Source: Formosa sp.
GTDB taxonomy: Bacteria > Bacteroidota > Bacteroidia > Flavobacteriales > Flavobacteriaceae
Length of the DNA: 38,591 nt
Direction: 5' to 3'
NCBI GenBank assembly: GCA_018673215.1
Contig: JABHDE010000011.1
Span: 1-38,591, forward strand
Part shown: positions 42 through 20,471 of the stretch, in pieces
How positions within the stretch are numbered: the first letter of the stretch is position 1
How the letters are laid out: every line of letters begins with the position of its first letter
Program-made: the position numbers and the translations under genes
Notes under the pieces: generated by a model
Databases searched by the model: none
Seen by the model: only the letters and a program-made list of their open reading frames with translations
Told to the model about the DNA's origin: nothing

Positions 42-2381
42 TTAATTATATTTTAATTTTTCGTTTTTATCCCAAATTCCCCAACGCGCTCCTACATCTC
101 CTTCGTGATGCACTTTCCAAGACTCATCAAATGATGAAAAATAGAAAAATGGTATTTTATTTTTATTGGCCCAATTGGACGTTTCTATAAAATACCTCAT
201 TGCATTTATTTCGGTTGGGATTGCTGACTCTAAACTATCGCCTTGATTTGGCCAGCCTGTTTCTGTAATAATGACTGGTTTTCCATTGGAAACTAGCTGT
301 GTAACAGCATACATTTGTTTTAAATAAGTTGTTGATTGATCAATATTACAACCTTCCCAAAACGGGTAGCAATTTACTAAAATAACGTCACATGCGTCTA
401 TAAGTTCTGATCTTTTTACAAACTGATAATAGGCATCAACATAGCCTACAGGAATGCCTGGTAATGCTTCTTTTACTCTGTTGATATAAGCAATCAATTC
501 TTCTTCAGTAAGTTCTTCACGCATTAAGGCTTCATTTCCTACGACTGCGATATCAACAAAACCAGATTTACCTAGCTTTATGAGTGCATTTATTTCTGTT
601 TCGTTTTGAGTTTTATCATCTCCAATCCAAGCACCAACCATGGTCTTAAGCTCTTTTTGTTGAGCCACTTTTGGAATGAGTTCATTTCCATCAGTACAAG
701 AGAAAGAACGCACCCATTGAGTATAAGGCGCTATGACTTCCATACGTTTAGTAATTTGAGATTCAGATAATTGATCTCCAATGTTTTGACCCTCTAAATA
801 CGGACTAAAACACAAACCGTGCAAACCATTATTTAATGTTTTGGAAAATAAGGCTATAATTTCTGAATCGGTTTTTGATGAAAAATCAGTATGAGAAGAG
901 TTATCTATTTTTAAATCAGAGCTTAGCAACGACGCTAGTTTATCTGTTTGGTAAAACGATGTTGGTTTCTGTTCAGACTTGATTCGTTTGTCCAATTCCG
1001 CACGTACTTCTCCAGCACTTTCTTCAGTGACGCTATATCCTCGCATTACAAACATAGCAATTACGGTTCCTAAGATAGGAATTCCAGAAAACGATAATCG
1101 TAATCCATCAACGGCTCCTTCGGGTTGGACAGAAACTCCTGAATCGAAACCAACCGAACTCATAATTACGCCACTTAGTCCACCTGCAATTGCAAAACCA
1201 AATTTGACCATCAACCAATAGATAGCTCCAAAAGTACCTTCTCTTCTCAGCCCTGTATTGAGTTCATCTAAATCAATCACATCGGCTGTCATAGACATCA
1301 TTAATAAAAATAAACTTCCAATACCAAAGGAGAAAAAAGGAAGTGCAAAAATAAACATATAGGGTTTTCCTGGTATAAAGAGAAACCAAAGCATCAAATA
1401 CCCTAAAACAGATATTCCTTGTGAAATCAAAAAGGCCTTCTTTTTTCCCATCAATTTAGACATTTTAGCCACGATAGGAATCACTAAAAAGGTGGTACCG
1501 AGAGCTCCTAAGCAGCCAAAAAGTGTCGGCCAAATTCCAGCTGCTCCAGCATCACCTTCAAAGAGGTGATAAACAATAATAAAGAATGAAAATGAGGCAA
1601 TCGTCATAAATGCGTTGTACACTAAAAAAGTAGCGATACATAGTTTTCTAAATGGTTTGATTTTAAAAGCACTTACAAAACCTGATCCTATTTCTTTCAA
1701 ACTATTTCCTATATTTTTTAAATTTAGAGGAGAATAGTCTTCGTCTAAAGTTGATTTACTTTTAATAAATATTCCTGGAATCATCGCACAAATAGCGGAA
1801 ATAACTCCAACCCAAATGGCAAGTGTTCGCGTCGCAACTTCTGCAGATTCAAACCACTCAGGGTCATACATAATCACCCAAAACCAAGGCGCAATTACCC
1901 AGGCCCATTGCCCTATAAATTGAGCAGTTGCCATGATGCTAGTACGTTCGTGAAAATCATTGCTCATCTCATACCCCATTGCAACATAAGGAACGCTAAA
2001 GATGGTAATTCCCAAATAAAATAGAAATGACCAAATCATAAAATAAACGAAGTTATAATCAATTCCAGCATCTTTATAAAGTTGCCACATAGCAATAAAT
2101 GAGATACACAAAATAATAGCACCAATTATCACATATGGTCGTCGTCGTCCCCATCGTGATTTTGTGTTATCTGAGATATATCCCATAATAGGGTCTGTAA
2201 AGCTATCGAAGAGTCTTGGGAAAAAATAAATAACACCCCACATCCAACCCGGAAAACCTAAATCTTGAACCAAAACAACCATAAATATACCTAAAGCAGC
2301 TGGAAACATTTGATTAGCAAGCATACCTATACCAAAGGCTACTTTTTGGCCGAATGGTACTTTTTCTAAATTTATAGACAT
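42..2381 (-). CDS. GPH/MFS sugar symporter fused to a C-terminal GH17 beta-glucanase domain
   Basis: A 779-residue protein in two parts. Residues 1 to about 460 are a polytopic membrane transporter with roughly 12 hydrophobic segments. It shows hallmarks of the glycoside-pentoside-hexuronide:cation symporter (MelB-like) family, including RLFDSFTDPIMGYISD near residue 56 and the basic loop RWGRRRP at about 76-82. Residues about 480-779 form a GH17 domain with the acid/base motif VVGNEAL (E617) and nucleophile motif ITETGWP (E707). There is no signal peptide between the parts. GPH carriers have both termini in the cytoplasm, so the GH17 domain should face the cytoplasm and could act on beta-1,3-gluco-oligosaccharides as they enter (inference). 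It is the last complete gene visible in the glucan operon, after the GH30 gene. The single uninterrupted frame and intact catalytic pair argue against a sequencing fusion. Confidence 0.88.
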   Translation of the reverse strand: MSINLEKVPFGQKVAFGIGMLANQMFPAALGIFMVVLVQDLGFPGWMWGVIYFFPRLFDSFTDPIMGYISDNTKSRWGRRRPYVIIGAIILCISFIAMWQLYKDAGIDYNFVYFMIWSFLFYLGITIFSVPYVAMGYEMSNDFHERTSIMATAQFIGQWAWVIAPWFWVIMYDPEWFESAEVATRTLAIWVGVISAICAMIPGIFIKSKSTLDEDYSPLNLKNIGNSLKEIGSGFVSAFKIKPFRKLCIATFLVYNAFMTIASFSFFIIVYHLFEGDAGAAGIWPTLFGCLGALGTTFLVIPIVAKMSKLMGKKKAFLISQGISVLGYLMLWFLFIPGKPYMFIFALPFFSFGIGSLFLLMMSMTADVIDLDELNTGLRREGTFGAIYWLMVKFGFAIAGGLSGVIMSSVGFDSGVSVQPEGAVDGLRLSFSGIPILGTVIAMFVMRGYSVTEESAGEVRAELDKRIKSEQKPTSFYQTDKLASLLSSDLKIDNSSHTDFSSKTDSEIIALFSKTLNNGLHGLCFSPYLEGQNIGDQLSESQITKRMEVIAPYTQWVRSFSCTDGNELIPKVAQQKELKTMVGAWIGDDKTQNETEINALIKLGKSGFVDIAVVGNEALMREELTEEELIAYINRVKEALPGIPVGYVDAYYQFVKRSELIDACDVILVNCYPFWEGCNIDQSTTYLKQMYAVTQLVSNGKPVIITETGWPNQGDSLESAIPTEINAMRYFIETSNWANKNKIPFFYFSSFDESWKVHHEGDVGARWGIWDKNEKLKYN

Positions 2382-2420: not shown

Positions 2421-3908
2421 TTATTTTGGTACTACTATAGTTTGAATTGCTTGGGGTTGTATGGTTATTAATTTTGAAGTTTTTCCTAAAGAAAGTTCAA
2501 AGGATTTTAGTTCTTTTCCTTCGTTAAAAACGACTATAGCAATAGACCCATCTGGGTTTTGTGCAGCTGTAACTTGTAAGTCTGCATCCGTTTTATCTAA
2601 ACCAATCACTTTTGCTCCTGGTCGGATGTATTTACTAAAATGTGCCATCGTGTAGTAGAGTGGCGTAAAGTATACTTCATCGTTGTCTGGATCGACAATT
2701 ACTGGGGCTACACACCAGTTTTTAAACCAGTTTGGGCCCCCTTGTCTGTCTAAGACCATATTCCAATCTACCCAACCATCGACCCAATTGTTTAGGCATC
2801 CAATAATGTCTCGTGCATACCTGTTGACTGGAGCATATTTTGGGTGTAAATATTTTTTAGCGGGTTCTCTCCAGTCGTAACCCCAATCTGTGGCCTCTTT
2901 TGACCAGTACCATTTGTCATCTTGCCATTTTGGTATTTCAGAGTCTATACAACCTTCGGTTTCGATTAAATATTTGTTGGGTGCCTTTTCATGTGCATAC
3001 TGTAAAGCTTTTGGGAAAAAGTCGTAAGTACTTTCATACCAATGGATTGCAGTTCCTGAATAATACTTGGAAGTAGCCTCATTTTCATACATTACATCTA
3101 CCCACTCTTTTAAACCATCTCTATTTTGATCGTATCCTAAAATTTTAATCTCTGATTTACCTAGTTCTTCAAGTTTTGGACCTAAATGGTTTTGCACAAA
3201 ATCTGTTTCTTCTTCTGGTGAAAAATGCATACTCTCCCAGTTATTGCCATTTCCATGAGGTTCATTTACGGGTGTTAATCCCCAAATATCAATGCCTTCA
3301 GATTTATAGGCCTCCAAATACTTAGAAAAAAACAAGGCAAAGGAATCATAGTATTCTGGAAGTAATTTTCCACCAACATATTGTTTATTATCTTTCATCC
3401 ATGGCGGTGCAGTCCAAGGGGATGCTATGATATTGAAGCCCTCTTTTGAGATTGCCAAAGCATCTTTTATCATTGGAATTAAATCATCTTTATCTTCTTT
3501 GATACTAAAATGTTCTAGCGTCATATCGTCTGCAATAGGTGCATATGTATAGTTATTTAATGAAAAATCGCAGGAACTTATATGGGTTCGCGTCAATGAA
3601 TAGTTAGCGCCATCTTCACTAAAATAAGCTTCAAGTATTTTAGTTCTGTTTTTTTCACTCAAACGATTTAGTAAGTAGGCTGAAGATTCGGTGAATGAGC
3701 CTCCGAAACCAGTAATAGTTTGAAATGTTTTTTCAGGATTCAATTGGATTTTAGAAGGGTGTTCAGAAAATTCAAATTCTGACACTTGAGTTAACTTATT
3801 CCCCTGTTCAGAAGTTTCATAAACTGTAACTTCTAGAGATTGATTGGAGGTGCAGGCTGTGAGCATTGCGAATATAATTAAAAAATGATATATTTTTAAA
3901 TGTTTCAT
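2421..3908 (-). CDS. GH30 family beta-glucosidase/beta-1,6-glucanase lipoprotein
   Basis: A 495-residue exported lipoprotein. The N-terminal hydrophobic segment ends in a lipobox, with C19 as the lipidated residue. The catalytic barrel carries the GH30 acid/base motif LTPVNEP (E216) and a nucleophile candidate in IETEGC (E318). Other family landmarks are TGFGGSFTESSA at about 66-77 and SPWTAPPWMK at about 163-172. The C-terminal beta domain runs from about 430 to the end. GH30 enzymes in marine laminarin loci remove beta-1,6-linked glucose branches, which fits the neighbouring GH16, GH17 and GH149-like genes. It follows the GH17 lipoprotein gene by one base and is probably co-translated with it. 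Subfamily and exo or endo mode are not resolved. Cellular side (periplasm-facing or surface) cannot be read from the sequence. Confidence 0.9.
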   Translation of the reverse strand: MKHLKIYHFLIIFAMLTACTSNQSLEVTVYETSEQGNKLTQVSEFEFSEHPSKIQLNPEKTFQTITGFGGSFTESSAYLLNRLSEKNRTKILEAYFSEDGANYSLTRTHISSCDFSLNNYTYAPIADDMTLEHFSIKEDKDDLIPMIKDALAISKEGFNIIASPWTAPPWMKDNKQYVGGKLLPEYYDSFALFFSKYLEAYKSEGIDIWGLTPVNEPHGNGNNWESMHFSPEEETDFVQNHLGPKLEELGKSEIKILGYDQNRDGLKEWVDVMYENEATSKYYSGTAIHWYESTYDFFPKALQYAHEKAPNKYLIETEGCIDSEIPKWQDDKWYWSKEATDWGYDWREPAKKYLHPKYAPVNRYARDIIGCLNNWVDGWVDWNMVLDRQGGPNWFKNWCVAPVIVDPDNDEVYFTPLYYTMAHFSKYIRPGAKVIGLDKTDADLQVTAAQNPDGSIAIVVFNEGKELKSFELSLGKTSKLITIQPQAIQTIVVPK

Positions 3909-3909
3909 A

Positions 3910-5202
3910 TTAATGAGTCTTTATAAGTTCTTTTTTGACTGGGGGTAATTCTACTTCAAGAAATAAGGCTTCTTTGTTACCATTATAGGTTTTAGTAATA
4001 GGTTTTCCGCCACGAGTTAATCCATTAAAAACCCCTTGATCTACTAAATCCCAAAGAGCATATTTTGCTTTTCCATCTACAGTGAATAAACCAAAATGGT
4101 TTTCCGACCCACCTGGATTGTGAGCATCTTTCCATGGTTCGTCAAAGGCTTCAAAGTAGAAACATGACATTTGAGCGTCATTCGTCCATTCACGAATATA
4201 GTTGTAAAAAATAGCCTCCTTGTATTCATCGGTTGCTTTGGAGCCTTTGGAGCCATAGTAGCCATTTGAATAACTTGCCCAACCTGTTTCACCAATATGA
4301 ATTGGTTTGTCAACTCCTAAACTTTTAACATAGCTTGCTACACTATCGACTTGAGAAACGGCGTATGATTTTGCGCGTTTCATGGCTGTGTCGATACGTT
4401 TTAAACTTGACAGTTGAGTTTCATCACCAAAAATGCCCCAAAAAATAGGATTGTAATGTGTATCATGCATTGGATAGGTATGAATAGATAAGTAATCCAC
4501 AGCTTTAATCAATTTTGTAAGATCTTCTACATGGTATTGAGAATCTCCTCCACCCCATGATGCAAAATTATCTGAACTAGTTATCCAAATATCCTTAGAT
4601 AATTTCCCTGTTTGTTTTAAGGATTGTAAATGAGAAACCCATTTTAGGATTACGTTGGGTTGTACATAATAGGAGGTTGCCCATTTTACCATGGCCTCGT
4701 TTCCAACAGCAATAACTTTCACAATATCTGGGTATTCGTTTGATAGGGCTACAGCACGATCAATTTCTTCAGCGTTCTGAGCACTTTCGACATTATGGTT
4801 AACTGGCCTATCAGTCCAAGCATTTAAACAATCGATCCAAGCACCTAGCATCAAATACATTTCAAAGTTTGGATCTTCATTTTTTAGTTCGCGTATGGCT
4901 TTTAAAATATTTGATGCATGAGCTAATTGAACATTATAAGTTCGTAATATTCGAATATTCATCGCATGAAGAATTTTAATATCTTCTTTTAGCTCTCCAA
5001 TAGTTGGCTGAAAATCTCTTGATAATTTTCTATACCCTCCATAAGAGATGGCTAAGTAGTTTGAATTTCCTAATATATCTTTAGCAGTCACTTTTTTTTG
5101 TATTTGATCGTTTGGTATAATTTTTTTTGGTTGACTTTCATTGCAGGACATTATAATAAAAACAAGCAGTATTAAATTTAATATGTGTATTGTTTTTTTC
5201 AT
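3910..5202 (-). CDS. GH17 family endo-beta-1,3-glucanase-like lipoprotein
   Basis: A 430-residue lipoprotein with signal peptide and lipobox at FIIMSC (C20). The GH17 fold is marked by the acid/base motif AVGNEAM (E169) and the nucleophile motif IGETGWAS (E305), with HTYPMHD and the late aromatic motif FEAFDEPWK in expected positions. GH17 enzymes cleave or transglycosylate beta-1,3-glucan. In a laminarin locus it would shorten linear stretches after debranching (inference). It is a separate gene from the GH17 domain fused to the symporter, and the two are clearly diverged around the catalytic motifs. It lies 15 bases after the phosphorylase gene and 1 base before the GH30 gene, inside the downstream half of the operon. 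Confidence 0.88.
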   Translation of the reverse strand: MKKTIHILNLILLVFIIMSCNESQPKKIIPNDQIQKKVTAKDILGNSNYLAISYGGYRKLSRDFQPTIGELKEDIKILHAMNIRILRTYNVQLAHASNILKAIRELKNEDPNFEMYLMLGAWIDCLNAWTDRPVNHNVESAQNAEEIDRAVALSNEYPDIVKVIAVGNEAMVKWATSYYVQPNVILKWVSHLQSLKQTGKLSKDIWITSSDNFASWGGGDSQYHVEDLTKLIKAVDYLSIHTYPMHDTHYNPIFWGIFGDETQLSSLKRIDTAMKRAKSYAVSQVDSVASYVKSLGVDKPIHIGETGWASYSNGYYGSKGSKATDEYKEAIFYNYIREWTNDAQMSCFYFEAFDEPWKDAHNPGGSENHFGLFTVDGKAKYALWDLVDQGVFNGLTRGGKPITKTYNGNKEALFLEVELPPVKKELIKTH

Positions 5203-5217: not shown

Positions 5218-8200
5218 TTATTTTAATCTACCTTTTTCCAAGTTTACATTTAATTGGATGACTTCTCCATTTCGATTAAATACTTGGGTGCTTATTTCTG
5301 TATCTAAGCTTAAGTGGTTAAATGTTTTTGAAGTTCCATCACTGAAATCAACTGTTATACTATCTTCTTCTGAAATAGTATAAATAACAGGAACTTGGCA
5401 GTAGGTAAAACAAAGCGAACCTTCTGAAACAAGAATGCTATCTTTTTTGTTAGGAATAGCGATGTAATGAAAGATATTGCTTTCTTGTAAAAACTCATCC
5501 TTTCTCAACAAACGTGGACTAAATCCTAGTTTTCCATCAGATACTACCACGCCTAGTTCGCCAAAACGCGACAATACATCTTCTTTTACCTGTCCAGTCA
5601 TACCGGGTTGTTGTGCTCCTTTTCCTGCTGGCGTATGCGAATAGGCATCTGTTGGGAATGCGCCATAGAGTTGAGGAGATTTATGCACACCAATTCCTGC
5701 ATTAATTTCGTAGTAATGTTCTAGTAATTTTCCAACGGATGTTTCGTCCGATTTAGCATCCATAGCTGAATTACAAGTTTCTAGCACAGCCAACTGTAAT
5801 TTAGAAACCATGTGCCAATAAATAGAGCCTAATCCTTCATAGCCATAAAAAGTACCTGAACGACCTGTAAAAGCCTTGTGATTAAAGACTTCTTCAAAAA
5901 TTTGAAGTATTTTTGGAGTTTCTGACTTTGCAATGGCTTCATAAGAAGTTCGTGAAAGTTCTAATAAAGCCGCTTTTAGATCGTTGGAATTTTTAAAGTT
6001 TCCATTAAAATGGTGGTCACCATTAACATCTTTCTCTAAAATCTGTATGTTTCCATCAGAAACCAGCTGAACTAACAGCTCAGAGGATGTAACAGCAGCT
6101 GGCGATATTGTATTTCGCTCAATAAATCCTTTTAGTTCTTTGTATGGATACAGTAAGTAACTGTATTGATCTGGACGGAAAAGTTTACTAGCTTTCATTG
6201 CATCCAAAACAGACAAGGACTGTTTAGTTGATAAATATTTTGAACTTAAAACTGCAACTTGCCCTTCAAGCATTTCATCCAAATATGTAATTGAAATACT
6301 ATTGTTGTCGTTTATTGTCATTAAATTATACGCGTGGTATAAATTGTCTTCACGTTTATTTACTTCAATAGAGTGTTCTAAGTATTGAAGACTTACTTCA
6401 ATAAACGATTTTATATCTTGAACAGATATTTTATTTTTCCTTCCTGAGAAAGCAGCTTTATAAATCTGATCTCTATAATTACTACCTGCATTTCCTAAGG
6501 CGTCTAAAATAACTTTCCTATCTGTGTCGCTGATACGTCCAGAAAGCAAGTGTTGATTGTTTTTAAAGGTTTTAGAAATTGCATCAAAGAAAGTGACAAG
6601 CTCTTTAGAGACTTCTACGGAATCTAAATCAGATTGAACAATAACAGTATCAAAGAATTTTAAGAAACGTCTTAAATAATACAAGGTAACCATAGAAACA
6701 CCACTTCCTACTAAGGCATTGTTCGCGTCGTTCCATTCAGGACGTTGCGTATTCATCCAAATTCCTCCTTCAGGAATAAAGTTTGAAAGTTTAGCTAAAG
6801 TAGTGGCTAATATTTTTTCGATGAAATTGACTTTAACAATAAATCTATTTTCATCACGTAACAAGGCACCATCGGCTCCTAGCTCTATGCGTTGTTCTCT
6901 AATTTTATGATCTAATGCTTCATCAAATTCAATCGTATCTTTTGGGTTTTCAAGCAATGCATCGTAGCTCTTGATTTTATAAGGTACGTTGGCATACACA
7001 AACAAATCTTTATCAAAAAGAGTTGCTAATTTTCCAGGTTGATGGTTTTCAATAAACTCTAAAAATTTGAGTAAATAAATCACTTGGTGATCTCCCCAAT
7101 AACCAATATACGACCACGGGTCGTCTGGCTCTATCGTTTCCCAGTCAAATCCATCCTTAGTAACACGGTAAGGATTGTAACCGTCGAAAGTGGTTGCATT
7201 CAAAAACTTATGAATCATACTTTCTATAAAGTCAGGATACGAATGCGCTAGCGCTTCCCAATTTTGAAAAATATCACGCCAATTTCCTTCGTAATCTAAT
7301 ATTTTTGATCCATCAATTTCACTTTTGGTATTGATAGAGAATTTATTCCAAGGACGACTAGGATCCCCGTGTCGACGGCTAAATTTTAATGGCATATACT
7401 CAAAACACAAACGTCTGAAATTAGAGTCATCTACATCGTGAGCAAGTTCTTGTAAAACAGAAAGTGTGAATTTTTCTGGAAGATTCTTTATGCGATCTTC
7501 TGTCGTTCTGGCTACTTTTTTATTGGCTTTAGAAAGGTAATTTTTAAAATCCCATCTTTCAATCTGGTAATTATCATCAAAAATCCCACCTCTCATAATG
7601 TTGAATAAGGTATTAGAGAAATGACGAGTGTCTCTAAATTTGTCTGCCGATAGTTGTAAACCATCAGAAGCGGCATTTAAAGCAATTAATCTTGTAGTTC
7701 CTTTCTCAATTTTTTGGTTGATTAGATCCCATAAACCATCGTTGGCTTTAATAGTGTTGATGAGCTTTGCAATCGCAGAATGATTTTTATTGACTTCAGC
7801 GACAAGCAACCACTCTTTGTTAGCTTGTGGAGATAAAACAATTTGAGAGTTCACAAAATACGCCCCTTTCTCGGCTTTAATATCTGTTTCTTCTAAAATT
7901 TCATGTTGTTTTCTAAAGCTATCTAGTTGTAAGGAAGATAATAGATGTTTAGAATTCTCTAAACCTAAAGACCAAACAATGTTGGCTTTCAAAGCTTCAC
8001 TAGGTTCTGCTTTATCAACAATGATTGCACTTAAAGCATAAATCCCTAAACCAGAACTTTTTTCTAACTCACTTCGTTTGTATGCATCTACTAAATTACT
8101 ACTCGAGTTTTGTAGGTCGCTCCCAACACCATAAGGTAAAATATTCTGAATACCATCCAATACATTAATTTCTACTTTAGAATTCGCAGTATTGATGAGT

Positions 8201-8691
8201 TTCGATTTTTTAATAAACCCAAAAGTATTTGTAGAATTCCATTGGTACTGAAAGGTCAGTTCTAAATCATGATTAATCTCTTCAAATAAAACTTTATTTC
8301 CGTACTCATTTTTATATAAATTTCGAGTGGTATTGTACTTACCTGCAAAACGATTCGAAAACGGTTCCCATAAATGAATTTCATCATTTTTAAGGACTTG
8401 AAAGATAGATTTACTTCCTGTAATTTCTGCGGCTTCCGTAATTTTATCATCAGTGTAATAAGGAAATAACGCAAATTCTGAATTTTTTCTTCCAGCGGTT
8501 AAACTTCCATTACTCGAAATAAACATCCAGTGATTTGAATCACTAACGATACTCATAAAAAATGGCCGCATTTTGTCACTGTTAGAAATCTTGTAATAGA
8601 CTTCATTATCTATATTAACCAAGGATCCATCAATGCTTTTATCCTGATTTGCGTCTTTGCTTTTTGCTGAAAAAATAGTTTTTTTTGTCAT
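5218..8691 (-). CDS. large cytoplasmic beta-1,3-glucan phosphorylase-like protein (GH149/GH161 type)
   Basis: A 1157-residue protein with no signal peptide, so cytoplasmic. Length and layout match the GH94-related phosphorylases: an N-terminal beta-sandwich (about 25-310), then a helical (alpha/alpha)6 barrel. Visible motifs include RHGDPSRPWNKF (about 440-451), EPDDPWSYIGYWGDHQ (about 521-536) and RPEWNDANN (about 650-658). D655 in the last resembles the general-acid Asp of the WND motif in GH94 enzymes. Such enzymes use phosphate to release glucose-1-phosphate from beta-1,3-gluco-oligosaccharides, saving ATP. The laminarin-type neighbours favour beta-1,3 specificity, and GH149 is my first choice over GH161, from memory of family length and context. 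It opens the second half of the locus, just after a terminator. Product assignment is inference from motifs and context. Confidence 0.72.
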   Translation of the reverse strand: MTKKTIFSAKSKDANQDKSIDGSLVNIDNEVYYKISNSDKMRPFFMSIVSDSNHWMFISSNGSLTAGRKNSEFALFPYYTDDKITEAAEITGSKSIFQVLKNDEIHLWEPFSNRFAGKYNTTRNLYKNEYGNKVLFEEINHDLELTFQYQWNSTNTFGFIKKSKLINTANSKVEINVLDGIQNILPYGVGSDLQNSSSNLVDAYKRSELEKSSGLGIYALSAIIVDKAEPSEALKANIVWSLGLENSKHLLSSLQLDSFRKQHEILEETDIKAEKGAYFVNSQIVLSPQANKEWLLVAEVNKNHSAIAKLINTIKANDGLWDLINQKIEKGTTRLIALNAASDGLQLSADKFRDTRHFSNTLFNIMRGGIFDDNYQIERWDFKNYLSKANKKVARTTEDRIKNLPEKFTLSVLQELAHDVDDSNFRRLCFEYMPLKFSRRHGDPSRPWNKFSINTKSEIDGSKILDYEGNWRDIFQNWEALAHSYPDFIESMIHKFLNATTFDGYNPYRVTKDGFDWETIEPDDPWSYIGYWGDHQVIYLLKFLEFIENHQPGKLATLFDKDLFVYANVPYKIKSYDALLENPKDTIEFDEALDHKIREQRIELGADGALLRDENRFIVKVNFIEKILATTLAKLSNFIPEGGIWMNTQRPEWNDANNALVGSGVSMVTLYYLRRFLKFFDTVIVQSDLDSVEVSKELVTFFDAISKTFKNNQHLLSGRISDTDRKVILDALGNAGSNYRDQIYKAAFSGRKNKISVQDIKSFIEVSLQYLEHSIEVNKREDNLYHAYNLMTINDNNSISITYLDEMLEGQVAVLSSKYLSTKQSLSVLDAMKASKLFRPDQYSYLLYPYKELKGFIERNTISPAAVTSSELLVQLVSDGNIQILEKDVNGDHHFNGNFKNSNDLKAALLELSRTSYEAIAKSETPKILQIFEEVFNHKAFTGRSGTFYGYEGLGSIYWHMVSKLQLAVLETCNSAMDAKSDETSVGKLLEHYYEINAGIGVHKSPQLYGAFPTDAYSHTPAGKGAQQPGMTGQVKEDVLSRFGELGVVVSDGKLGFSPRLLRKDEFLQESNIFHYIAIPNKKDSILVSEGSLCFTYCQVPVIYTISEEDSITVDFSDGTSKTFNHLSLDTEISTQVFNRNGEVIQLNVNLEKGRLK

Positions 8692-8990: not shown

Positions 8991-10880
8991 TTATTCAAAA
9001 GTTATGTTGTCGAAATAGATGATATTATCTGATGTTCTTCCATCTAAGTCAAAATCAGGGAATACAACAATCTGATCAATATTTGTAGAACCGTCTAGTC
9101 CGTTTCCAATACGACTGCTAAAATCAAACGTCAACTCTTCCCATGCATTAACTACAGTGTTAGCCACTTTAATTTCAACTTGTGCTCCTCCTGCAGGATT
9201 AACTAATTTAATACCTACATCACTGATGACAGTTTTGTATACCATAATTTTTATGATATCATTTGAAGCAGAAAGATCCCATGTAATCCCCATTTCTCCG
9301 TGAGCAGTTTCAGTACCAGCCCAAGGTTGTCCAGATTGAAGTGTGGTATATTTAGCTACAGTAGCAGAGGTATTTGCTCCTGAAGCATCTGGATTTGGAA
9401 CAAACTCTAATGGTGGATTGGTATCATTTTCAAAAGCATTCCAAGTCCAGTTAGCTCCATGTCCATTTTCTTCAAAATCAATTGGAAGCGTAAGGTTATA
9501 AGAACCGCCGCCACCGCCACCGCCGCCGCCAGAACCGTCGCCGTATAGTTTTAGATCATCAAAATAATACGTATCGGTGCTGTTTGTGTTTAAGTCAAAG
9601 AATATAACAACCTTGTTAAATTTGTCTGAATTTGCAGGAGCAAACGGAAATGTCAATTCTTCCCATCCATTTGTTATTGATGTTGTTAAAAATAATTCGG
9701 AATTGTTACTAGCATTTCCAATTTCTTCTAACTTTAATCTAACTTCTGTACTTGGTCTTGAAGACCATACTTTTATTTTTAAACCACTGTTTGAATTGAA
9801 ATCTAATTTCGCATCTAAATCATATTGATTATTGTCCCAAGGATTGTTATTTCCTCTAACAACTTGACCAACTTTACAAGATGAATTTACAGCATTGTCA
9901 AAATCTGGGTTGTCTACCCATGAAAAACCTGCACCATCAGAGATGAAATCTGCAGATGGATCTGTTTGAAAAGTCATGTTAAGGTTTGAAGCACTGTAAG
10001 ATTCAGTTGTTTCAGCAGTACAACCTCCGCCGCCGCCGTTGCCTTCACCATAAAGCATTAGATCGTCGATATAATACGTTTGTTCAGTCGCTGAATTTAA
10101 TTCAAAAAACAGTACAATTTTATCAAATTTATTAGAATCGGCACTTTCAAAGTCAAAGCTAAGTTCTTCCCATGCTCCTGCACTATCGGCTGAAGTGGTT
10201 GCTGAAACTTCTTTAAAAACCCCTGCATTGGTTTGATCCTCTAATTTTAATAATACATTTGTGCCTGCCGTTGGTGACCACACTTTCAATTTAAATCCTG
10301 TATTTGAATTAAAATCTAATTTTGCATCTAAAGTAAATTGATTGTTAGCATACTGAGCTGAACTGGTTCTGTCGATTTGCCCCACTTTACAAGAAGTGTT
10401 TACAGCATTTTCAAAATCAGGATTATTTATCCAAGAAAAACCTGCTCCGTCTGAAACAATACTATTGGATAGATCAGACATAAATGTCATATTTAAATCT
10501 GAAGCAGAAAGTGATTCAGCTGTTTCTGAATCACAAGTGCCTACTACTTCACTCACATTAATAGTGATTTCATCCGAGAAGGTGTCGTATGCTCCGGCTA
10601 CATTGTAAGCTTTTAAAACAACTAAGTACGTTCCGTTTTCATAAACGTTTACTGGGTTGATAAGTCTTGAAGTGTTTACTTCATCACCAAAATCCCAATC
10701 GTAAGTTGAGGCATTTGTAGAAGTATTAATAAATGTTACTGTCCCTGTATTTGCATTAATTGTATGCGTAAAGCCAGCTGTTAGTTGTGGTAAAAATGCT
10801 TCGTCATCATCACAGCCAATAAAGCTAATTGCCAATATCAGTAGTGAAACTTTTTTTAATGTTCTTAATAAATTTTTCAT
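8991..10880 (-). CDS. surface glycan-binding lipoprotein: PKD domain plus three beta-sandwich modules
   Basis: A 629-residue lipoprotein (lipobox ISFIGC, C23) with no catalytic motif. A PKD domain spans about 33-108 (YDWDFGDE at about 60-67). Module A (about 116-278) and module B (about 288-447) are close internal repeats: both contain a FSW-NPDF-NAVN block, LDAKLDFNSN, WEEL and a C-terminal YYxDDLxLYG. Glycine-rich linkers (five Gly at 282-286, nine at 451-459) separate the modules. Module C (about 462-629) is more distant but keeps WEELTFDF and IYFDNITF. This is the pattern of multimodular surface glycan-binding proteins in Bacteroidota. CBM102, described from such a protein of Christiangramia forsetii, is a candidate family. 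Lying next to GH16, it most likely holds laminarin at the cell surface. Ligand is inferred from context. Confidence 0.8.
   Translation of the reverse strand: MKNLLRTLKKVSLLILAISFIGCDDDEAFLPQLTAGFTHTINANTGTVTFINTSTNASTYDWDFGDEVNTSRLINPVNVYENGTYLVVLKAYNVAGAYDTFSDEITINVSEVVGTCDSETAESLSASDLNMTFMSDLSNSIVSDGAGFSWINNPDFENAVNTSCKVGQIDRTSSAQYANNQFTLDAKLDFNSNTGFKLKVWSPTAGTNVLLKLEDQTNAGVFKEVSATTSADSAGAWEELSFDFESADSNKFDKIVLFFELNSATEQTYYIDDLMLYGEGNGGGGGCTAETTESYSASNLNMTFQTDPSADFISDGAGFSWVDNPDFDNAVNSSCKVGQVVRGNNNPWDNNQYDLDAKLDFNSNSGLKIKVWSSRPSTEVRLKLEEIGNASNNSELFLTTSITNGWEELTFPFAPANSDKFNKVVIFFDLNTNSTDTYYFDDLKLYGDGSGGGGGGGGGSYNLTLPIDFEENGHGANWTWNAFENDTNPPLEFVPNPDASGANTSATVAKYTTLQSGQPWAGTETAHGEMGITWDLSASNDIIKIMVYKTVISDVGIKLVNPAGGAQVEIKVANTVVNAWEELTFDFSSRIGNGLDGSTNIDQIVVFPDFDLDGRTSDNIIYFDNITFE
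9504..9530 (-). repeat. in-frame glycine-codon repeat (nine GGN codons) in the glycan-binding protein
   Basis: Nine consecutive glycine codons (GGC/GGT) form a GC-rich tract that stands out in an AT-rich genome. They encode the linker between modules B and C. A shorter tract of five glycine codons at 10023-10037 joins modules A and B. Gains or losses of whole codons would only change linker length. Confidence 0.85.
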
Positions 10881-10904: not shown

Positions 10905-11837
10905 TTAATTATATACTCTTACGTAATCTACAAGCATGTTTTGTGGAAATAACTCTCCATTATCAGGACTCCCTGGGAAATTACCTCCAACTGCTAAATT
11001 GATGATGATGAAAAAAGGTTTGTTAAATACCCAATCACCTGTCACATTTGTTGGTTCAATAGCTTCTGCTTCATCAGTCGCAGCAACACCATCATTAAGT
11101 GTGTAAACAGCATCTGCTGGGGTTACCACAATATCAGAAGGTCTGATTTGATTGTATAGAACATCATCTATGTAATAGTTAATGTAATCTGGACCCCATT
11201 CGATTCCAAAAACATGGAATCCTGCATCATAACGGTCGTTTCCTAAGTCATAACTTTTAGTAAGATGTCCTTGTGGGTTTGATTCTCCTGAGTATCCAGG
11301 TCCGTGAATAGAACCGCTTACCATTGTAGGTTCTTGTCTACGATACTCCATAATGTCAATCTCTCCACATTGTGGCCATCCATCGACATCATAATTTTCA
11401 CCTAAGAGCCAAAACGCAGGCCAAAGACCAGATCCGCCAGGGACTTTAATACGAGCTTCAAAACGTCCATAAGCTTGAGAAAATTTCCCTTTTGTCAGGA
11501 GTCTTGCTGATGTATAGGAAGATCCGTTGTAATCTTCTTGAATTGCAGAAATTACTAACAACCCATTTTGTACCGTTACATTCTCTGAGCGGTCTGTGTA
11601 ATATTGTAATTCATTATTACCCCATCCATTAAAACCAGTCCCTGTATCAAAGTTCCATATCTCTGAGTTCGGAGCGCCTTCTACATCAAACTCGTCAGAC
11701 ATAACTAAATTTGTAAACGTCGCAACTGTTTGGGTTTCATCGTTAGAACAATTTGAAAGCATGAGCATCGATGCAAAAACAAAGGACTTCAATACTAGGG
11801 TTTGAATCCTTATCTTATATTTATTTATTTTATTCAT
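10905..11837 (-). CDS. GH16 endo-beta-1,3-glucanase (laminarinase) lipoprotein
   Basis: A 310-residue lipoprotein (lipobox LMLSNC, C30). It is almost entirely one GH16 jelly-roll domain. The catalytic motif GEIDIMEY gives E159 (nucleophile), D161 and E164 (acid/base), the E-[ILV]-D-[IVAF]-[VILMF]-E pattern with the extra Met typical of laminarinases. WPAFWLLG (about 139-146) and FFIIINLAVGG (about 275-285) are further GH16_3 landmarks. It cleaves internal beta-1,3 links of laminarin, most likely at the cell surface. It sits between two non-catalytic binding lipoproteins, with gaps of 24 and 27 bases, so the three probably form one surface complex from one transcript. Confidence 0.93.
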   Translation of the reverse strand: MNKINKYKIRIQTLVLKSFVFASMLMLSNCSNDETQTVATFTNLVMSDEFDVEGAPNSEIWNFDTGTGFNGWGNNELQYYTDRSENVTVQNGLLVISAIQEDYNGSSYTSARLLTKGKFSQAYGRFEARIKVPGGSGLWPAFWLLGENYDVDGWPQCGEIDIMEYRRQEPTMVSGSIHGPGYSGESNPQGHLTKSYDLGNDRYDAGFHVFGIEWGPDYINYYIDDVLYNQIRPSDIVVTPADAVYTLNDGVAATDEAEAIEPTNVTGDWVFNKPFFIIINLAVGGNFPGSPDNGELFPQNMLVDYVRVYN

Positions 11838-11864: not shown

Positions 11865-13277
11865 CTAGTTGCCTCTGTAGAAATAAATATTATCTAGAAA
11901 AAACTCTGTTAATGAAGATCCATTAACATTTTCATAAATAATTTGTCCTATGTTAGTTCTGTTGGCTAAGGAGATAGAAAACTCTAGAGTACTCCATTCC
12001 CCTGCTTCAAAATCCGAAACATCAAAAAATACTTGTTGAATTGTATCATCTCCACCACCATCAGCTTGGTCTGCACCAAAATCTTTAACAGTTATTAAAA
12101 GATCAAGATTAGAAGGCACTTCAGGTATATTTATGTTAAAGTGAAGTTTAGAAAATTCTGTCGCATCAACAGTTGGATTTGAAAATTGGTTTCCAACAAA
12201 GTTAAAATTGGTGTAATTAATCATAGTATTACCATTCACTACAAAATCACTTGACAATGTTGTTTGCCATGGTTCCCAATAGCCATTAAAAAAGTCTACT
12301 GGAACGTTTGTGTAGCTATCACTATATAAGGAAATAACATTGTTAGCAGCTCTTGTAGGTGTGGGTGCAACTTCAAAACTACCTACCGCATTTACGGTCA
12401 TTGAGCCCTGTGCTTCTACACCTCCTAAACTAGCTGTGATGACAGCGGTACCACTATTGACCGTTATCACACCAAATTGATCAACAAATGCCAAACTTGG
12501 ATCTGAAGAAGTGAAATCAAAATAACTTGGAGCTACGTTGAGAGTTTTGTTTAGACCTGATCCTAAATTGAATGTTTGTGTGAGACCTGTGAGTTCTAAA
12601 TCAATTCCAGAAAAGGCATCTTGTACTAGATCTTGACCATTTGCAATCGCGGGTCTTGGTTGACCGATGGTTCCTAGTTTTTCAAACTTTAATTCGTCTA
12701 TCCAAAACGTGTAACCATTTCCGCCGGTATTTTGAGTTCCAGCCGAATACCAAAACATTCCTCTTTCGTCAAATAGTTTTGAAGGATCTGGAATTGGAAT
12801 AACATATTTTACCCAGTTTGTACTCAAACTTATATTTGTTTCGTTGACTTGATATTGGTTCAATCCAAAGTCTTGTCCAAATCCAATTTCTCCAATCACA
12901 ACACCTTGAGAGGCTTTTGCCCAAAAGGTAAGTGCATCGAACTCTGTAAGATCACGACCAGATCCATCGACTCTTAGTATACCACCTGCATAGTTCCCTT
13001 CTGGGTCGTTTGCATTGGGAACGTCAAATCGCATGGAAGCATAACTCTCATACCCTTCGCTTTCGTCAACCGACCAAGCAGTGGCTTTCGAGCCCAAGTA
13101 AGGAAAGTAAAAATCACTTCCTAACCCAATTGGTGTATCTGTGAAAATCTCACCAGTTTTAGAGAGGGTTGCAAATTCTGTTTGATCAGAAGTCTCTCTT
13201 TCGCAACTCATTAAAATTACAAGGAGTAGCCCTGTAAGGAGTGTAATTTTGGAATGTATAAATTTTAAATTTTTCAT
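11865..13277 (-). CDS. surface lipoprotein with two beta-sandwich modules around a Big-like domain
   Basis: A 470-residue lipoprotein (lipobox VILMSC, C25). Residues about 46-200 look like a carbohydrate-binding jelly roll (FDALTFWAKAS, then WVKYVIPI and YTFWIDELKFEK). Residues about 215-297 resemble a bacterial Ig-like (Big) domain (GVITVNSGTAVITASLGG). Residues about 305-470 form a second jelly roll ending FFLDNIYFYRGN. No glycosidase motif is seen. It lies between the barrel-fused glycosidase (13 bases) and the GH16 gene (27 bases), as expected for a SusE-like or other surface glycan-binding protein. I do not recognise a named family. Laminarin binding is inferred from context only. Confidence 0.7.
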   Translation of the reverse strand: MKNLKFIHSKITLLTGLLLVILMSCERETSDQTEFATLSKTGEIFTDTPIGLGSDFYFPYLGSKATAWSVDESEGYESYASMRFDVPNANDPEGNYAGGILRVDGSGRDLTEFDALTFWAKASQGVVIGEIGFGQDFGLNQYQVNETNISLSTNWVKYVIPIPDPSKLFDERGMFWYSAGTQNTGGNGYTFWIDELKFEKLGTIGQPRPAIANGQDLVQDAFSGIDLELTGLTQTFNLGSGLNKTLNVAPSYFDFTSSDPSLAFVDQFGVITVNSGTAVITASLGGVEAQGSMTVNAVGSFEVAPTPTRAANNVISLYSDSYTNVPVDFFNGYWEPWQTTLSSDFVVNGNTMINYTNFNFVGNQFSNPTVDATEFSKLHFNINIPEVPSNLDLLITVKDFGADQADGGGDDTIQQVFFDVSDFEAGEWSTLEFSISLANRTNIGQIIYENVNGSSLTEFFLDNIYFYRGN

Positions 13278-13290: not shown

Positions 13291-16200
13291 TTATTTTCCG
13301 ATGTTAATATGAATGTATGTTCTTATTTCCCATTCACTTCCATTAGGAAACCCTATTGAACTGATTGGTGGGACTGCTGGATAGGTATTAGGTGGTACAA
13401 AATTAGGCGAAAACCTAGGCGAATATTCATTTAAAGAACGCCATGTTCCACGAACCCCTACCTGTGTGTTTGGAAGGATGAACCAATCTGGTTTTCCTAA
13501 GGTAGTCGATAAATCTAACATTAATTGTACTGGGTACGTTAAGTTAAAATCTCGGTGGTAATCAAAAGGACCCCAATCGTTAATTTTAAAAGTATGAGTA
13601 AGCTTCAATTTGTTATAAATCAATCTGATGTCTCCACCAAATCTTTCTATTAAACGATCGTCGCTACCATTTGCTTGTGCATTACCAGCGTATAAGTTAG
13701 CAATAAACCCAAAATCTGGACTTAGCTTAGACACAATACGGGAATGAGCTTCCCATAAATCTTGTGCTGGAGCGGCATTTGGAAACGCAAAAGAAGTACG
13801 ATTTGCTAAAAATCCAACTGCTGCATCTTGAGCTGTTGGATGGTGACGGAATACAAAACCAAGGTTGAAAGCGAACTTTGCATCTTCAACTCTGTCATTG
13901 TTCCATTCGTACATCCATGTACCTGGAGTAGGGTCATAAGTTAACAAGAATTCTCCTGCAGTGGTTTCTCTATTGGCTCTAACTGCAAACGGATCATCTT
14001 GAACATTTCTAAGTCGTCCTGTTCCACCGTTCAAATCATTTGGCATGGCCGCAACAATTGGCTTTTGCCATAAAAAGTTAGGTGCAATTTGGAAATCTCC
14101 AAATGTATAAGTGAATCCAGAAAGAAAGTTGTTTTGATTTCCACTTCCGGTATCTTTTAATTTCCAACCTGTAAAGGTTTGTGTTTGATCAGACCCTCCA
14201 TTGGCAACTAAGCCCATGCTAGCTCCTTGTGCATACCACTTAATAGGTCCTTTTTCATAAGTCAGCTTGGCTTTAGCACCCCAGTTGTCTTTTTCATTGA
14301 TTTCGTCTGTATAAATAACATAGTTATCAGTCGTTCCTTCTGCTATTTGAAATTTACGACCGTTTAGAGGTTGTCCACCCCATAAACCACCTATTTCAAA
14401 TTTAAAGGCTCCAAATTGTCTTTCGGCTGCCAAAGACACTCTGCGTGTTTTTGGAAGTGGGATTGCAATAGAGGTTACTGCGCTCCCTACATCATCAATA
14501 TCTTCGTGATACACAGCAGATACGCCCCAATTCCCAAGCTTTCTTCCGTATTTTAAGAGAACGGCTGGATTCGCTCCCCACCAAAGTTGGGGTCCAAAAG
14601 CAGCTTTCAAACCTTCTAAAGCACCTTTAGCATCTAACTCTATTCCTGAAATTTCTCCATTATATAAGTCTAAGTTAGGCCCGTAATTTGCTTCTCTGTA
14701 TAAGTTAAAGAAATCACCTTCATAAGCCCAGTGGTAATGGCCTGTTCTGTAAAAACCTCTAAGATTAAATTCTTTAGCATTCCAGTCAAATTCAGCGTTG
14801 TAAATTCTTACTCTGTTAGGGTCTGTAATGTTAACGTTTCCGTCATCTGTGTTTACAGAAAATGGAAGTCCAGGATTTTCATAAAAGATTTCATCAATTG
14901 GATTTTCAGCGACATTACCAAGAATATTAAAATTTACATTGGCTCGCATATTTGAAGTAGGGTTTCCCTCTACTCCAATAAAATAGGATTGCATATGATC
15001 AAATCCTAGTTCATTTGGATATGCATTAGAATTAGGATCTTCATTGTCAGGAGTTGTAATAAGGGTCCCTCCCGTATTGAAGGATGTAAATTCAGCTCTT
15101 AAATTACTTAGTTTAATTTTCTCATTACCACCTAAAGCTGCTTTATCTCCTCTAGCACGAAGAACGGCATCCATTAATTCTATATTATCAAAATGAGTTT
15201 TAATAAAATCAGCTGTCACACCTTCGTCATAAGGATTTAATTGATGTGCAATTTTTAAGGCGTAATAAGAGGCACGCGGATATAGCGTGTAAAGTCCTCT
15301 AGCGTTGGTAGGGCCTTTTGCACAAACTCCAAACCATTCTTCGTTCATGTTATTTTCACCAGGAGCATAATCAAGTTGGTACCCCCCATTTGACCAAGAA
15401 GCATTGTTGTCATGAACCTCTAAATTTTCAGTTTGTCCAAATTTCCACCAGCCATCACTGAATTGAAATGTGAATCCACCAATTGCATTTTCTGATTTTC
15501 CTAAACCAGCAGCATTCTCGTATATATCTTTCCAATTTGAAACCATATAATAAGCCTGCATTTTCTGATCTTCAGCATTATCTAAGGCATTAAAAGAATC
15601 AGCACCAAATTCGGTTAACATGATCGGCATATCTAATTTTTCTTTAACAGTAGAAAATGCATCAGTAAAAGATGAACCACGATACATATTAGTACCAAAA
15701 ACATCAATATCCTTACATTCTTCAGCAATGATATCTATAAATAAAACATCACCATTACAAATTGCTATTGGATGTGAAGAGTCTATGCTTTTCATTTTAA
15801 TTGAAGCATCGTTCATAAGTTTGTACATTGGTCTTCCTCGCTCTTCACCAACAAAATCTCTTTTTTCTTCTTCGTCTGGAAAATCTTCTGTTTCAGCACC
15901 AGCCCAAAATAATCCATAGTTATTTTCGTTTCCTAGCAAGAACATTAAGAGTCCTGGAGTATCTTTATAATCTTCGGCTAATGTAGTCACTTCAGATAAC
16001 AACAACTCTTGTGTTGCTGGATCTCTATAGTCGGTAACAGGGACCCAAGCACCGTTTATGGTTAGACCATAACGTCCAAAGGAATGATTTAATAAAGTGT
16101 AAATACCATAATTCTCGTATATATACTGAATCCATTTTGGTTGCACTCCTGTATATTGCCTTATGACATTAACTCCCATATTTTTTAGCAAGGCCATTTC

Positions 16201-16428
16201 GGCATCTAATGCTGCTTTAATCACATCATCAGATTGCTTCCACAAACTATAAGAATAATTGGTTCCAATCGGGAAATAATCCCAGTTCATTCCATTGATC
16301 ATGAAGTCTTTTCCATTCACAACTAATTTCATCCCATTTTCATTGTTAACAACTTTCACTTTATCTGCCTGAGCAAATATTGTAGTTGTAAATAAAAAAA
16401 GAACTAATCTTAAAAAGGTGTTTTTCAT
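13291..16428 (-). CDS. exported clan GH-A glycosidase fused to a C-terminal outer-membrane beta-barrel
   Basis: A 1045-residue protein with a cleavable signal peptide (about 1-20, ending IFAQ) and no lipobox. Residues about 25-400 form a (beta/alpha)8 glycosidase domain: INGMNWDYFP near 44-53, the acid/base motif LLGNENN (N167-E168) and a nucleophile motif MLTEFGADSF (E273), as in clan GH-A families GH2, GH5 or GH158; the family is not resolved. Residues about 430-1045 have alternating polar/aromatic beta-strand segments with turns (for example RIYNAEFDWNAKEFNLRGFY), as in large porin-like barrels, and end in the strand EIRTYIHINIGK. It is the first gene of the operon. With N-terminal domains of such barrels normally periplasmic, the enzyme may trim oligosaccharides at the pore exit (inference). 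It has no TonB box or plug that I can see. Confidence 0.75.
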   Translation of the reverse strand: MKNTFLRLVLFLFTTTIFAQADKVKVVNNENGMKLVVNGKDFMINGMNWDYFPIGTNYSYSLWKQSDDVIKAALDAEMALLKNMGVNVIRQYTGVQPKWIQYIYENYGIYTLLNHSFGRYGLTINGAWVPVTDYRDPATQELLLSEVTTLAEDYKDTPGLLMFLLGNENNYGLFWAGAETEDFPDEEEKRDFVGEERGRPMYKLMNDASIKMKSIDSSHPIAICNGDVLFIDIIAEECKDIDVFGTNMYRGSSFTDAFSTVKEKLDMPIMLTEFGADSFNALDNAEDQKMQAYYMVSNWKDIYENAAGLGKSENAIGGFTFQFSDGWWKFGQTENLEVHDNNASWSNGGYQLDYAPGENNMNEEWFGVCAKGPTNARGLYTLYPRASYYALKIAHQLNPYDEGVTADFIKTHFDNIELMDAVLRARGDKAALGGNEKIKLSNLRAEFTSFNTGGTLITTPDNEDPNSNAYPNELGFDHMQSYFIGVEGNPTSNMRANVNFNILGNVAENPIDEIFYENPGLPFSVNTDDGNVNITDPNRVRIYNAEFDWNAKEFNLRGFYRTGHYHWAYEGDFFNLYREANYGPNLDLYNGEISGIELDAKGALEGLKAAFGPQLWWGANPAVLLKYGRKLGNWGVSAVYHEDIDDVGSAVTSIAIPLPKTRRVSLAAERQFGAFKFEIGGLWGGQPLNGRKFQIAEGTTDNYVIYTDEINEKDNWGAKAKLTYEKGPIKWYAQGASMGLVANGGSDQTQTFTGWKLKDTGSGNQNNFLSGFTYTFGDFQIAPNFLWQKPIVAAMPNDLNGGTGRLRNVQDDPFAVRANRETTAGEFLLTYDPTPGTWMYEWNNDRVEDAKFAFNLGFVFRHHPTAQDAAVGFLANRTSFAFPNAAPAQDLWEAHSRIVSKLSPDFGFIANLYAGNAQANGSDDRLIERFGGDIRLIYNKLKLTHTFKINDWGPFDYHRDFNLTYPVQLMLDLSTTLGKPDWFILPNTQVGVRGTWRSLNEYSPRFSPNFVPPNTYPAVPPISSIGFPNGSEWEIRTYIHINIGK

Positions 16429-19644: not shown

Positions 19645-20265
19645 ATGTTACACTTAAGACGGCAAGATTTTGATGATTTAGACCATGTTTACAGAATAAA
19701 TATGATTAACAGTTGTTCCGGTTTTAAATCGGCAAATCTTATTGGGACCAAATCAAATGATGGAACTCCTAATGTTGCTGTATTTAGTTCTGTAACTCAT
19801 TTGGGATCTAACCCTCCATTACTGGGAATTGTTTTTAGACCCGTTTCAGACGTTCCAAGAAATACGTACGAAAACATTAAAGAAACAGGGCAGTTTACTG
19901 TAAATCATATCCATCTTGATATCATTGAGCAAGCACATCATACTTCTGCAAAATATGATAAAAATATCTCGGAGTTTGACATTACAAAGCTTAAAGAAGA
20001 ATACAAAAACGATTGGCATGCACCTTTTGTTAAAGGAGCCCCAATTCAGATGGCGCTCACTTACTGCGAGGAGTATTTAATCAAAGCCAATAACACCATC
20101 CAACTAATTGCTGAAATTAAAGATTTATACATTCAGGATGATATCGTAGAACCCGATGGATTCGTCAATTTGGCCAAGGCTAATGTAGTAGCTATTAATG
20201 GTTTGGACGGCTATGTATTACCTTCATTAAAGCAGCGTATCGAGTACCAACGTCCAAAGAAATAA
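19645..20265 (+). CDS. flavin reductase-like (FMN-binding split-barrel) protein
   Basis: A 206-residue protein with the flavin reductase-like split-barrel fold. Diagnostic stretches are NLIGTKSNDGTPNVAVFSS (about 31-49), PPLLGIVFRP (about 56-65) and NIKETGQFTVNHI (about 75-87). The ATG directly follows the stop of the ABC1 kinase, so translation is probably coupled. It may bind FMN and serve photolyase or redox chemistry of the cluster. The substrate cannot be told from sequence. Confidence 0.8.
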   Translation: MLHLRRQDFDDLDHVYRINMINSCSGFKSANLIGTKSNDGTPNVAVFSSVTHLGSNPPLLGIVFRPVSDVPRNTYENIKETGQFTVNHIHLDIIEQAHHTSAKYDKNISEFDITKLKEEYKNDWHAPFVKGAPIQMALTYCEEYLIKANNTIQLIAEIKDLYIQDDIVEPDGFVNLAKANVVAINGLDGYVLPSLKQRIEYQRPKK

Positions 20266-20278
20266 ACCAACACCTACA

Positions 20279-20413: not shown

Positions 20414-20471
20414 CTTAGCTTAATTTGGTTGGAAAAAAATAATGACAACCTCAAAATAAATTTTATTTTAC

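Follow-up and report, generated by a model that had tools for sequence, protein, structure and literature searches.

Laminarin, a main food polymer of the ocean and one of the sea's largest flows of carbon, makes up more than 10% of the carbon dioxide fixed each year (PMC11345257), and the SusC/SusD pair (SusCD) is regarded as the core uptake step. SusCD importers and utilisomes combine an outer-membrane barrel, a surface-type lipoprotein, and a glycosidase in a catabolic locus (PMC7618045). In Formosa, expression of the laminarin loci was highest on laminarin, and among these clusters is one with the glycoside hydrolases (GHs) GH17A and GH30 together with a fusion of a major facilitator superfamily (MFS) transporter and GH17, FbGH17b, in which a transporter of a laminarin locus and a glucan enzyme share one polypeptide (PMC6246565). 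Here, we analyzed a 38,591-nucleotide stretch of a Formosa sp. genome (contig JABHDE010000011.1; hereafter, the window), in which a gene encodes a GH domain joined to a predicted outer-membrane β-barrel (the GH-barrel fusion). The fusion is real and conserved, was apparently unrecognized, sits in a well-known type of laminarin locus, and suggests an unusual uptake route for this polymer.

Loci of this type have been described repeatedly. A North Sea metatranscriptome lists laminarin loci as GH149-GH0-GH30_1-GH17 and reports them as highly expressed in a bloom; one variant 1 locus lacks susCD, and such SusCD-less clusters were named CAZyme clusters (PMC10108472). The same set, with GH16_3, recurs in the published variant 1 and variant B loci (PMC10108472, PMC6298971) and in a Muricauda locus, where a GH2 β-glycosidase occupies the position of the fusion gene (PMC13188888). 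The window likewise contains GH149, GH17, GH30, GH16, and MFS-GH17. The GH0 of the published loci is probably the GH-barrel protein. In the passages on the variant 1, variant B, and Muricauda loci, a membrane barrel in this protein is not mentioned (PMC10108472, PMC6298971, PMC13188888), and a literature search of open-licence PMC papers (no preprints) returned no report of a glycosidase fused to an outer-membrane pore. The original prediction, made from the sequence of the window, knew of no characterized laminarin system built in this way; within these papers this holds for the barrel, but the gene itself is present in published laminarin loci, as GH2. We regard the fusion as a new outer-membrane version within glycan systems of a known type. 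FbGH17b differs from it in being an inner-membrane, α-helical transporter with its enzyme at the C terminus.

The two halves of the fusion protein

The open reading frame (ORF) of the fusion was confirmed on the minus strand with exactly the coordinates originally given, and its N terminus was judged by eye to be a type I signal peptide. Of 109 full-length ORFs, which do not include a frameshifted copy (L021), alignment A1 comprised that of the window and, after removal of near-copies, 75 of the remaining 108; A2 comprised the window and 20 sequences. An AlphaFold2 model of the whole protein (76 sequences in the alignment) had a predicted local distance difference test score (pLDDT) of 76.7 and a predicted template modeling score (pTM) of 0.55. 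When this model was searched with Foldseek, GH158(Pro), LaGH157, and BuGH158 came out on top (best E 1.4e-13), followed by glucuronidases and galactosidases of GH2 type; the outer-membrane barrels PfeA, MOMP, OpdQ, and BtuB appeared from rank 31 onward (E from 7.2e-8). We read the barrel matches as aligned to the C-terminal half, the match table not showing the aligned part. The TM-scores relative to the whole query were low (0.17–0.25), in line with partial matches.

The catalytic half appears intact. PF02836 (GH2 TIM barrel) matched residues 33–285 weakly (E 9.3e-6; 25.4 bits, cut-off 21). N-terminal sugar-binding and immunoglobulin-like (Ig-like) domains are the hallmark of GH2, and among the GH2 domains PF02836 alone was returned by Pfam for the fusion protein. 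In a profile search, the GH158 structures 6pal (E 4.7e-9) and 9oro (E 5.5e-9) matched over part of the domain, with GH2 β-galactosidases nearly as good (E 2.2e-8), and no GH158-named family was among the library scan results. Residues E168 and E273 were invariant in all 76 aligned full-length fused sequences, the window included, and also in 12 aligned enzyme-only relatives, consistent with the intact domain originally proposed. By manual count, they fall on residues 115 and 198 of the 6pal chain, which correspond, with an offset of 22, to E137 and E220 of BuGH158; in other words, N167, E168, and E273 of the fusion align with N136, E137, and E220. Mutation of E137 and E220 abolished the activity of BuGH158 (PMC7157763). 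The TIM barrel, the N-E acid/base after β-4, and the E nucleophile after β-7 are those of clan GH-A. Judged from these matches, the enzyme half represents a group within clan GH-A that cannot firmly be placed in GH2, GH5, or GH158, the three families against which the original prediction had proposed to search it, and it appears most like the β-1,3-glucanases of GH158 and GH157. The solved members of these two families (BuGH158, 6PAL; GH158(Pro), 9ORO; LaGH157, 9G5G) share with it the clan GH-A TIM barrel, the aligned catalytic residues, and a β-1,3-glucan context, whereas the structural identity is 12–15% (Foldseek alignments) and a predicted membrane barrel stands in place of the C-terminal Ig-like domain of BuGH158, which is absent from the model of the fusion enzyme. 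The fused enzyme probably cuts laminarin.

The C-terminal half is, by prediction, an outer-membrane barrel. Residues 438–1043 were modeled as 24 strands (counted manually from the DSSP list), and a signal peptide, an even number of antiparallel amphipathic strands, and short turns on one side were all found in the predicted protein. The hydrophobic/polar alternation of the strands was above that of shuffled strands (mean 2.29 versus 1.37, z 4.4). The odd strands are followed by 19, 34, 29, 6, 18, 29, 26, 31, 28, 7, 11, and 30 residues (median 27) and the even strands by 2, 3, 6, 2, 2, 2, 2, 21, 2, 2, and 12 (median 2), so that the alternation of long and short is mostly, not strictly, kept (permutation p 0.0007). 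Residues predicted to face the lumen were more conserved than those predicted to face the lipid (0.828 versus 0.720; difference 0.108, null standard deviation 0.031). Furthermore, loops L5, L7, L13, and L21 (residues 563–591, 615–620, 739–764, and 953–963), which are rich in W, Y, D, and E, had conservation values of 0.93, 1.00, 0.88, and 0.96, above the mean of the catalytic domain (0.78). This argues for a role beyond that of a mere anchor, which would need no such conservation, and the four loops may form a sugar-binding constriction. The barrel of about 600 residues originally put forward thus agrees with the modeled strands, the Foldseek matches, and the amphipathicity, and neither a predicted lack of a closed barrel nor homologs of a soluble β-sandwich type, the outcomes named as speaking against it, was encountered; closure of the predicted barrel is presumed.

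No Pfam family covers residues 438–1043; Pfam at E up to 5 gave no outer-membrane family and no sandwich-domain match in 21 barrel halves, and a PDB sequence search with the barrel half gave no match. A TonB plug was not found in the fusion protein by Pfam, although the same library detects PF07715 in the genome's own SusC; likewise, the library scan found no CarboxypepD_reg domain, which that SusC does have. Two unusually long turns on the supposed periplasmic side (832–852 and 977–988) are conserved (0.85 and 0.77) and may serve as docking sites for the enzyme domain, although each coincides in part with a stretch that was modeled poorly.

Distribution and partner gene

The fusion is a conserved family across Bacteroidota, not a rarity. 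A scan of GTDB genomes yielded at least 584 relatives, 80 of which were kept. Matches occurred in 47 of 395 Bacteroidota genomes (manual count): 33 had the fusion (the own genome included; 32 full length and one truncated where its contig ends), 9 had an enzyme-only copy, 1 had a broken copy, and the other 4 had a remote relative of the enzyme. When a barrel profile was run against the same 395 genomes, its 35 matches were the same 33 fusions, in open frames of more than 1000 amino acids, the broken copy, and one remnant; a barrel without the enzyme was thus seen as fragments only, in a loose first look that remote ones may escape. In the relative from the metagenome-assembled genome (MAG) of Formosa sp. 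Hel1_33_131 (L003), the gene order is GH-barrel, partner, GH16, PKD, GH149, and GH17; from the locus-tag spacing, the fusion gene would be two before FORMB_24690, a provisional placement. A copy also occurs in a record of the human-gut species Bacteroides finegoldii (L140, NZ_OY725931.1), in the order fusion, a partner of 36% identity, and GH16, then fimbrillin, a hypothetical protein, and BglX; no SusC/SusD was among the 18 listed features around it (incomplete gene table). That record, one of only two returned by a plasmid search, is listed as a plasmid; the presence of rpsA and of a gene for valine--tRNA ligase suggests that it is probably a chromosomal contig.

Directly downstream of the fusion gene, on the same strand and with a median gap of 11 bp, lies a gene for a partner lipoprotein in 106 of 110 loci, the window included. 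The four exceptions are a locus with a frameshifted fusion (L021), one with an early start call of the partner (L035), one at a contig end (L079), and one with a partner-like gene upstream (L106). Alignment A3, of the window and 50 of 84 partner references (the window's own copy, L001, is among the 84), belongs to this protein. Its model (pLDDT 91.1) consists of two carbohydrate-binding module (CBM)-like sandwiches flanking an Ig-like domain, and Foldseek returned tandem CBM22, SGBP-B of B. thetaiotaomicron (7kwb), CBM30, and CBM11, among reelin and other β-sandwich proteins. A PF22359 match stayed under its cut-off, and no SusD Pfam match was obtained. As a side observation, the frameshifted copy lies in a MAG labeled Rhodobacteraceae that carries this flavobacterial locus at 88% identity, probably through binning contamination.

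The eight close enzyme-only relatives (53–63% identity; these counts exclude a ninth genome, G332, whose copy [L117] is truncated by the end of its contig) lie inside the fused group. In a quick tree of 40 of the 76 fused rows and 12 enzyme-only rows (8 close, 4 remote), in which 16 of 49 inner branches were open, starred branches force at least five state changes. In one relative (L118, 3423–3629), a barrel match begins 13 residues before the enzyme stop and runs about 55 residues beyond it, and this short remnant shows that the barrel was lost in that case. No partner gene was in view at any of the eight loci. By a simple rule, a lipobox was found in five of the eight close relatives and in all four remote ones, none of which has a barrel. 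The broken fused copy (L120, 1271–4176) was seen by eye to lie beside an ORF resembling a transposase, presumably of IS110 type.

The window locus is, by its gene content, a laminarin locus: the GH149 match exceeds its cut-off, and the GH17 protein has nearly the same extent as solved 6fcg, which we take to be FbGH17A of Formosa. As originally claimed, the fusion gene stands at the head of this β-glucan locus, as the first of eight genes on one strand with gaps of 39, 1, 15, 299, 24, 27, and 13 bp. Across the 110 loci, many of which have short flanks, GH16 was found in 75 (74 at ≥38% identity), GH149 in 57, GH17 in 51, and GH30 in 38.

A putative uptake route and its alternatives

With moderate confidence, we read the fusion as a TonB-independent β-glucan channel to which a periplasmic glucanase is covalently linked and which a surface lipoprotein and GH16 supply with substrate. 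The CBM-Big-CBM lipoprotein would capture laminarin at the cell surface, GH16 would cut it, and the fragments would enter through the barrel, presumably without TonB since no plug domain is present. At the periplasmic mouth, the fused enzyme, with GH17 and GH30, would shorten the arriving fragments and, we propose, maintain an inward gradient; the later steps would fall to the MFS-GH17 fusion at the inner membrane and to GH149 in the cytoplasm. The domain make-up, the conservation, the gene pairing, the loop-length pattern, and the catalytic residues were computed directly, and from these the capture, the conduction through the predicted pore, the substrate specificity, the periplasmic side, and the coupling of cutting to uptake are inferred. 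On this reading, which we consider the best explanation, the task of SusCD would be performed by machinery of another kind: compared with SusC/SusD, the fusion has neither plug nor CarboxypepD_reg, its partner has no SusD match, the enzyme is covalently attached, and about 24 strands are predicted against the 22 of a SusC-type barrel. A bolder version, which we consider possible but doubtful, is that the TIM-barrel glucanase replaces the TonB plug and closes the periplasmic mouth of the ~24-strand channel, admitting sugar only by cutting, so that hydrolysis rectifies transport, with the CBM-Big-CBM lipoprotein as a SusD-like lid, and that this mechanism operates throughout Bacteroidota, in habitats ranging from ocean blooms to the human gut. 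Should the fusion serve as an uptake pore, a second route across the outer membrane has so far been annotated as a glycosidase, predictions of uptake that rely on SusC/SusD only would miss such loci, and a directly testable model for hydrolysis-driven transport would be at hand; the outer- and inner-membrane transport proteins of the window locus would then both carry a fused glucan enzyme.

In outer-membrane barrels, the long loops lie outside and the short turns are periplasmic. The short turns after the even strands therefore argue that both ends of the modeled barrel, and hence the enzyme, lie on the periplasmic side of the predicted pore, not at the cell surface. Acidic residues after the lipid cysteine are taken as a surface mark, and their mean number was 1.75 in the SusD positive control (two or more in 9 of 12), 1.86 in the partner lipoprotein (86 of 106), 2.09 in GH16 (63 of 75), and 3.28 in the PKD lipoprotein (n = 18), compared with 0.59 in GH17 (4 of 46), 1.00 in GH30 (n = 28), and 0.89 in the enzyme-only lipoproteins (1 of 9; 4 of these 9 rows are remote). 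Sequences under 38% identity (window-gene groups) or with fewer than 200 aligned residues were dropped, the enzyme-only row mixes 8 close and 4 remote relatives, and a first lipobox rule that missed many true-looking cysteines by eye was replaced by a second in this tally. Although the numbers are small, these signals fit an enzyme in the periplasm and a partner at the surface.

Several observations weigh against an uptake pore. Only 4 of the 24 strands are individually significant for amphipathicity, 5 lie under their own shuffled mean, and two of the values are near zero. On the supposed periplasmic side, two turns are as long as 21 and 12 residues, whereas three of the supposed outer loops have no more than 6, 7, and 11. 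The maximum of 2000 random lumen/lipid assignments was 0.110, so that at least one reached the observed 0.108, and the assignment was built on hydrophobicity, which may itself track conservation. Outer-membrane barrels usually end in an aromatic residue, which the C terminus of the fusion (HINIGK) lacks; the confidence of the whole-protein model is moderate; and, the support being computational, activity and conductance are predictions. SusC/SusD occur nearby at 12 of the 64 loci (of 80) with more than 8 kb upstream, although the other 52 stretches, in which none was seen, favor the channel reading (blastp queries: three pieces each of SusC and SusD and a single SusE-like piece; E up to 1e-4). 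Replacement of the barrel by SusCD at the enzyme-only loci was unsupported, as SusCD was in view at 2 of 8 of these. In the own genome (90.9% complete, 78 contigs), one SusC over the cut-off and one SusD (PF07980) match lie together on contig C6 (L151, 480–19535), in a separate locus with GH5-CBM6, GH16, GH30, and MFS. Another entry route thus exists in the same genome, and the idea that the window locus is its only β-glucan entry was rejected. None of the 15 SusC-model matches, nor the single SusD match, lies on the window contig (C52), which therefore lacks the adjacent susC/susD of a canonical polysaccharide utilization locus. The SusCD locus on C6 resembles published variant C laminarin loci.

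The same evidence bears on other functions of the barrel. Type V autotransporters carry a passenger followed by a 12-strand translocator domain, and the enzyme-first, barrel-last order, with a helix (residues 418–432) just before strand 1, would suit a barrel that threads the enzyme through and anchors it as a surface endo-glucanase without any uptake pore; BuGH158, the solved relative closest to the fusion in the profile search, has been described as an enzyme predicted to lie at the cell surface (PMC7157763). We nevertheless judge such display rather unlikely: about 24 strands were modeled, no autotransporter Pfam match was obtained for the fusion protein or the 21 barrel halves, the four lumen-side loops are more conserved than the catalytic mean, and a surface-type lipoprotein signal occurs in just one of nine enzyme-only relatives. 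The helix is not clearly a pore linker, because five of the eight close enzyme-only relatives keep this stretch, which also speaks against display. Alternatively, the barrel might mainly tether a periplasmic glucanase to the outer membrane, with SusCD pairs elsewhere doing the import. The SusCD β-glucan locus in the same genome fits this idea, and the barrel-less relatives scattered at several places among the fused ones, five of eight with a lipobox instead, indicate that anchoring is at least one, replaceable, function. As the whole function, however, tethering seems unlikely, since building 24 strands is expensive when a lipid would anchor the enzyme as well, the conserved aromatic and acidic loops would be of no use to a tether, and the absence of the barrel coincides with that of the partner gene in view.

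Two further explanations start from the domain order and the annotation. PgaA and PelB, like the fusion, have a soluble periplasmic N-terminal domain followed by an outer-membrane porin, as does the export porin BcsC, and the pairs PgaA/PgaB and PelA/PelB offer a model for export and trimming of a self-made β-glucan. In those systems, however, the N-terminal domain is a helical TPR domain, new polymer is exported, and the hydrolase is a separate protein; moreover, none of the eight cluster genes encodes a glycan synthase, the neighbors are catabolic, and a Formosa locus of the same type is induced by laminarin (PMC6246565), making export extremely improbable. RefSeq names the B. finegoldii homolog a GH2 TIM barrel-domain protein, as would be expected if the barrel were an annotation artefact and the protein a soluble enzyme of the common multidomain GH2 type that ends in β-sandwiches. 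Given the strand/loop pattern, the outer-membrane Foldseek matches, and the barrel halves free of sandwich-domain matches, we hold this to be very unlikely, and a glucanase-bearing channel remains our preferred reading.

Features of the window

Table 1. Coordinates of the GH-barrel fusion, its parts, and the neighboring genes in the window
Feature	Position	Strand	Evidence
GH-barrel fusion gene, 1045 amino acids	13291..16428	minus	ORF call with ATG start, Pfam, homologs, AlphaFold2, Foldseek
Signal peptide, residues 1-20	16369..16428	minus	by eye
Clan GH-A catalytic domain, residues 21-420	15169..16368	minus	PF02836, GH158 profile matches, invariant residues
Putative acid/base E168	15925-15927	minus	
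Putative nucleophile E273	15610-15612	minus	
Predicted outer-membrane β-barrel, ~24 strands, residues 438-1043	13300..15117	minus	AlphaFold2, Foldseek, loop/turn and amphipathicity tests
Partner lipoprotein, 470 amino acids, CBM-like/Big-like/CBM-like; N-terminus CERETS, acidic behind the cysteine	11865..13277	minus	adjacency, model, Foldseek
GH16 lipoprotein, probable surface endo-laminarinase	10905..11837	minus	PF00722 E 2.7e-22; CSNDET N-terminus
PKD-domain lipoprotein, probably surface glycan binding	8991..10880	minus	PF18911; CDDDEA N-terminus
GH149 β-1,3-glucan phosphorylase	5218..8691	minus	NF058639 1804 bits, cut-off 1150 (NCBIfam)
GH17 lipoprotein, probably periplasmic	3910..5202	minus	solved 6fcg E 2e-251, residues 1-430, whole length
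GH30 lipoprotein, β-1,6-glucanase type	2421..3908	minus	PF02055 E 7.7e-79
MFS sugar transporter fused to GH17, FbGH17b type	42..2381	minus	PF13347 and PF00332

A promoter and terminator scan of the window was uninformative, promoter-like sites being rarer than in shuffles. Elsewhere in the window (19645–27352), Pfam matches to a photolyase-related protein (DPRP) and a flavin reductase were found, and a second photolyase and a GTP cyclohydrolase-like gene were seen by eye nearby; this is perhaps a cluster for the repair of light damage.

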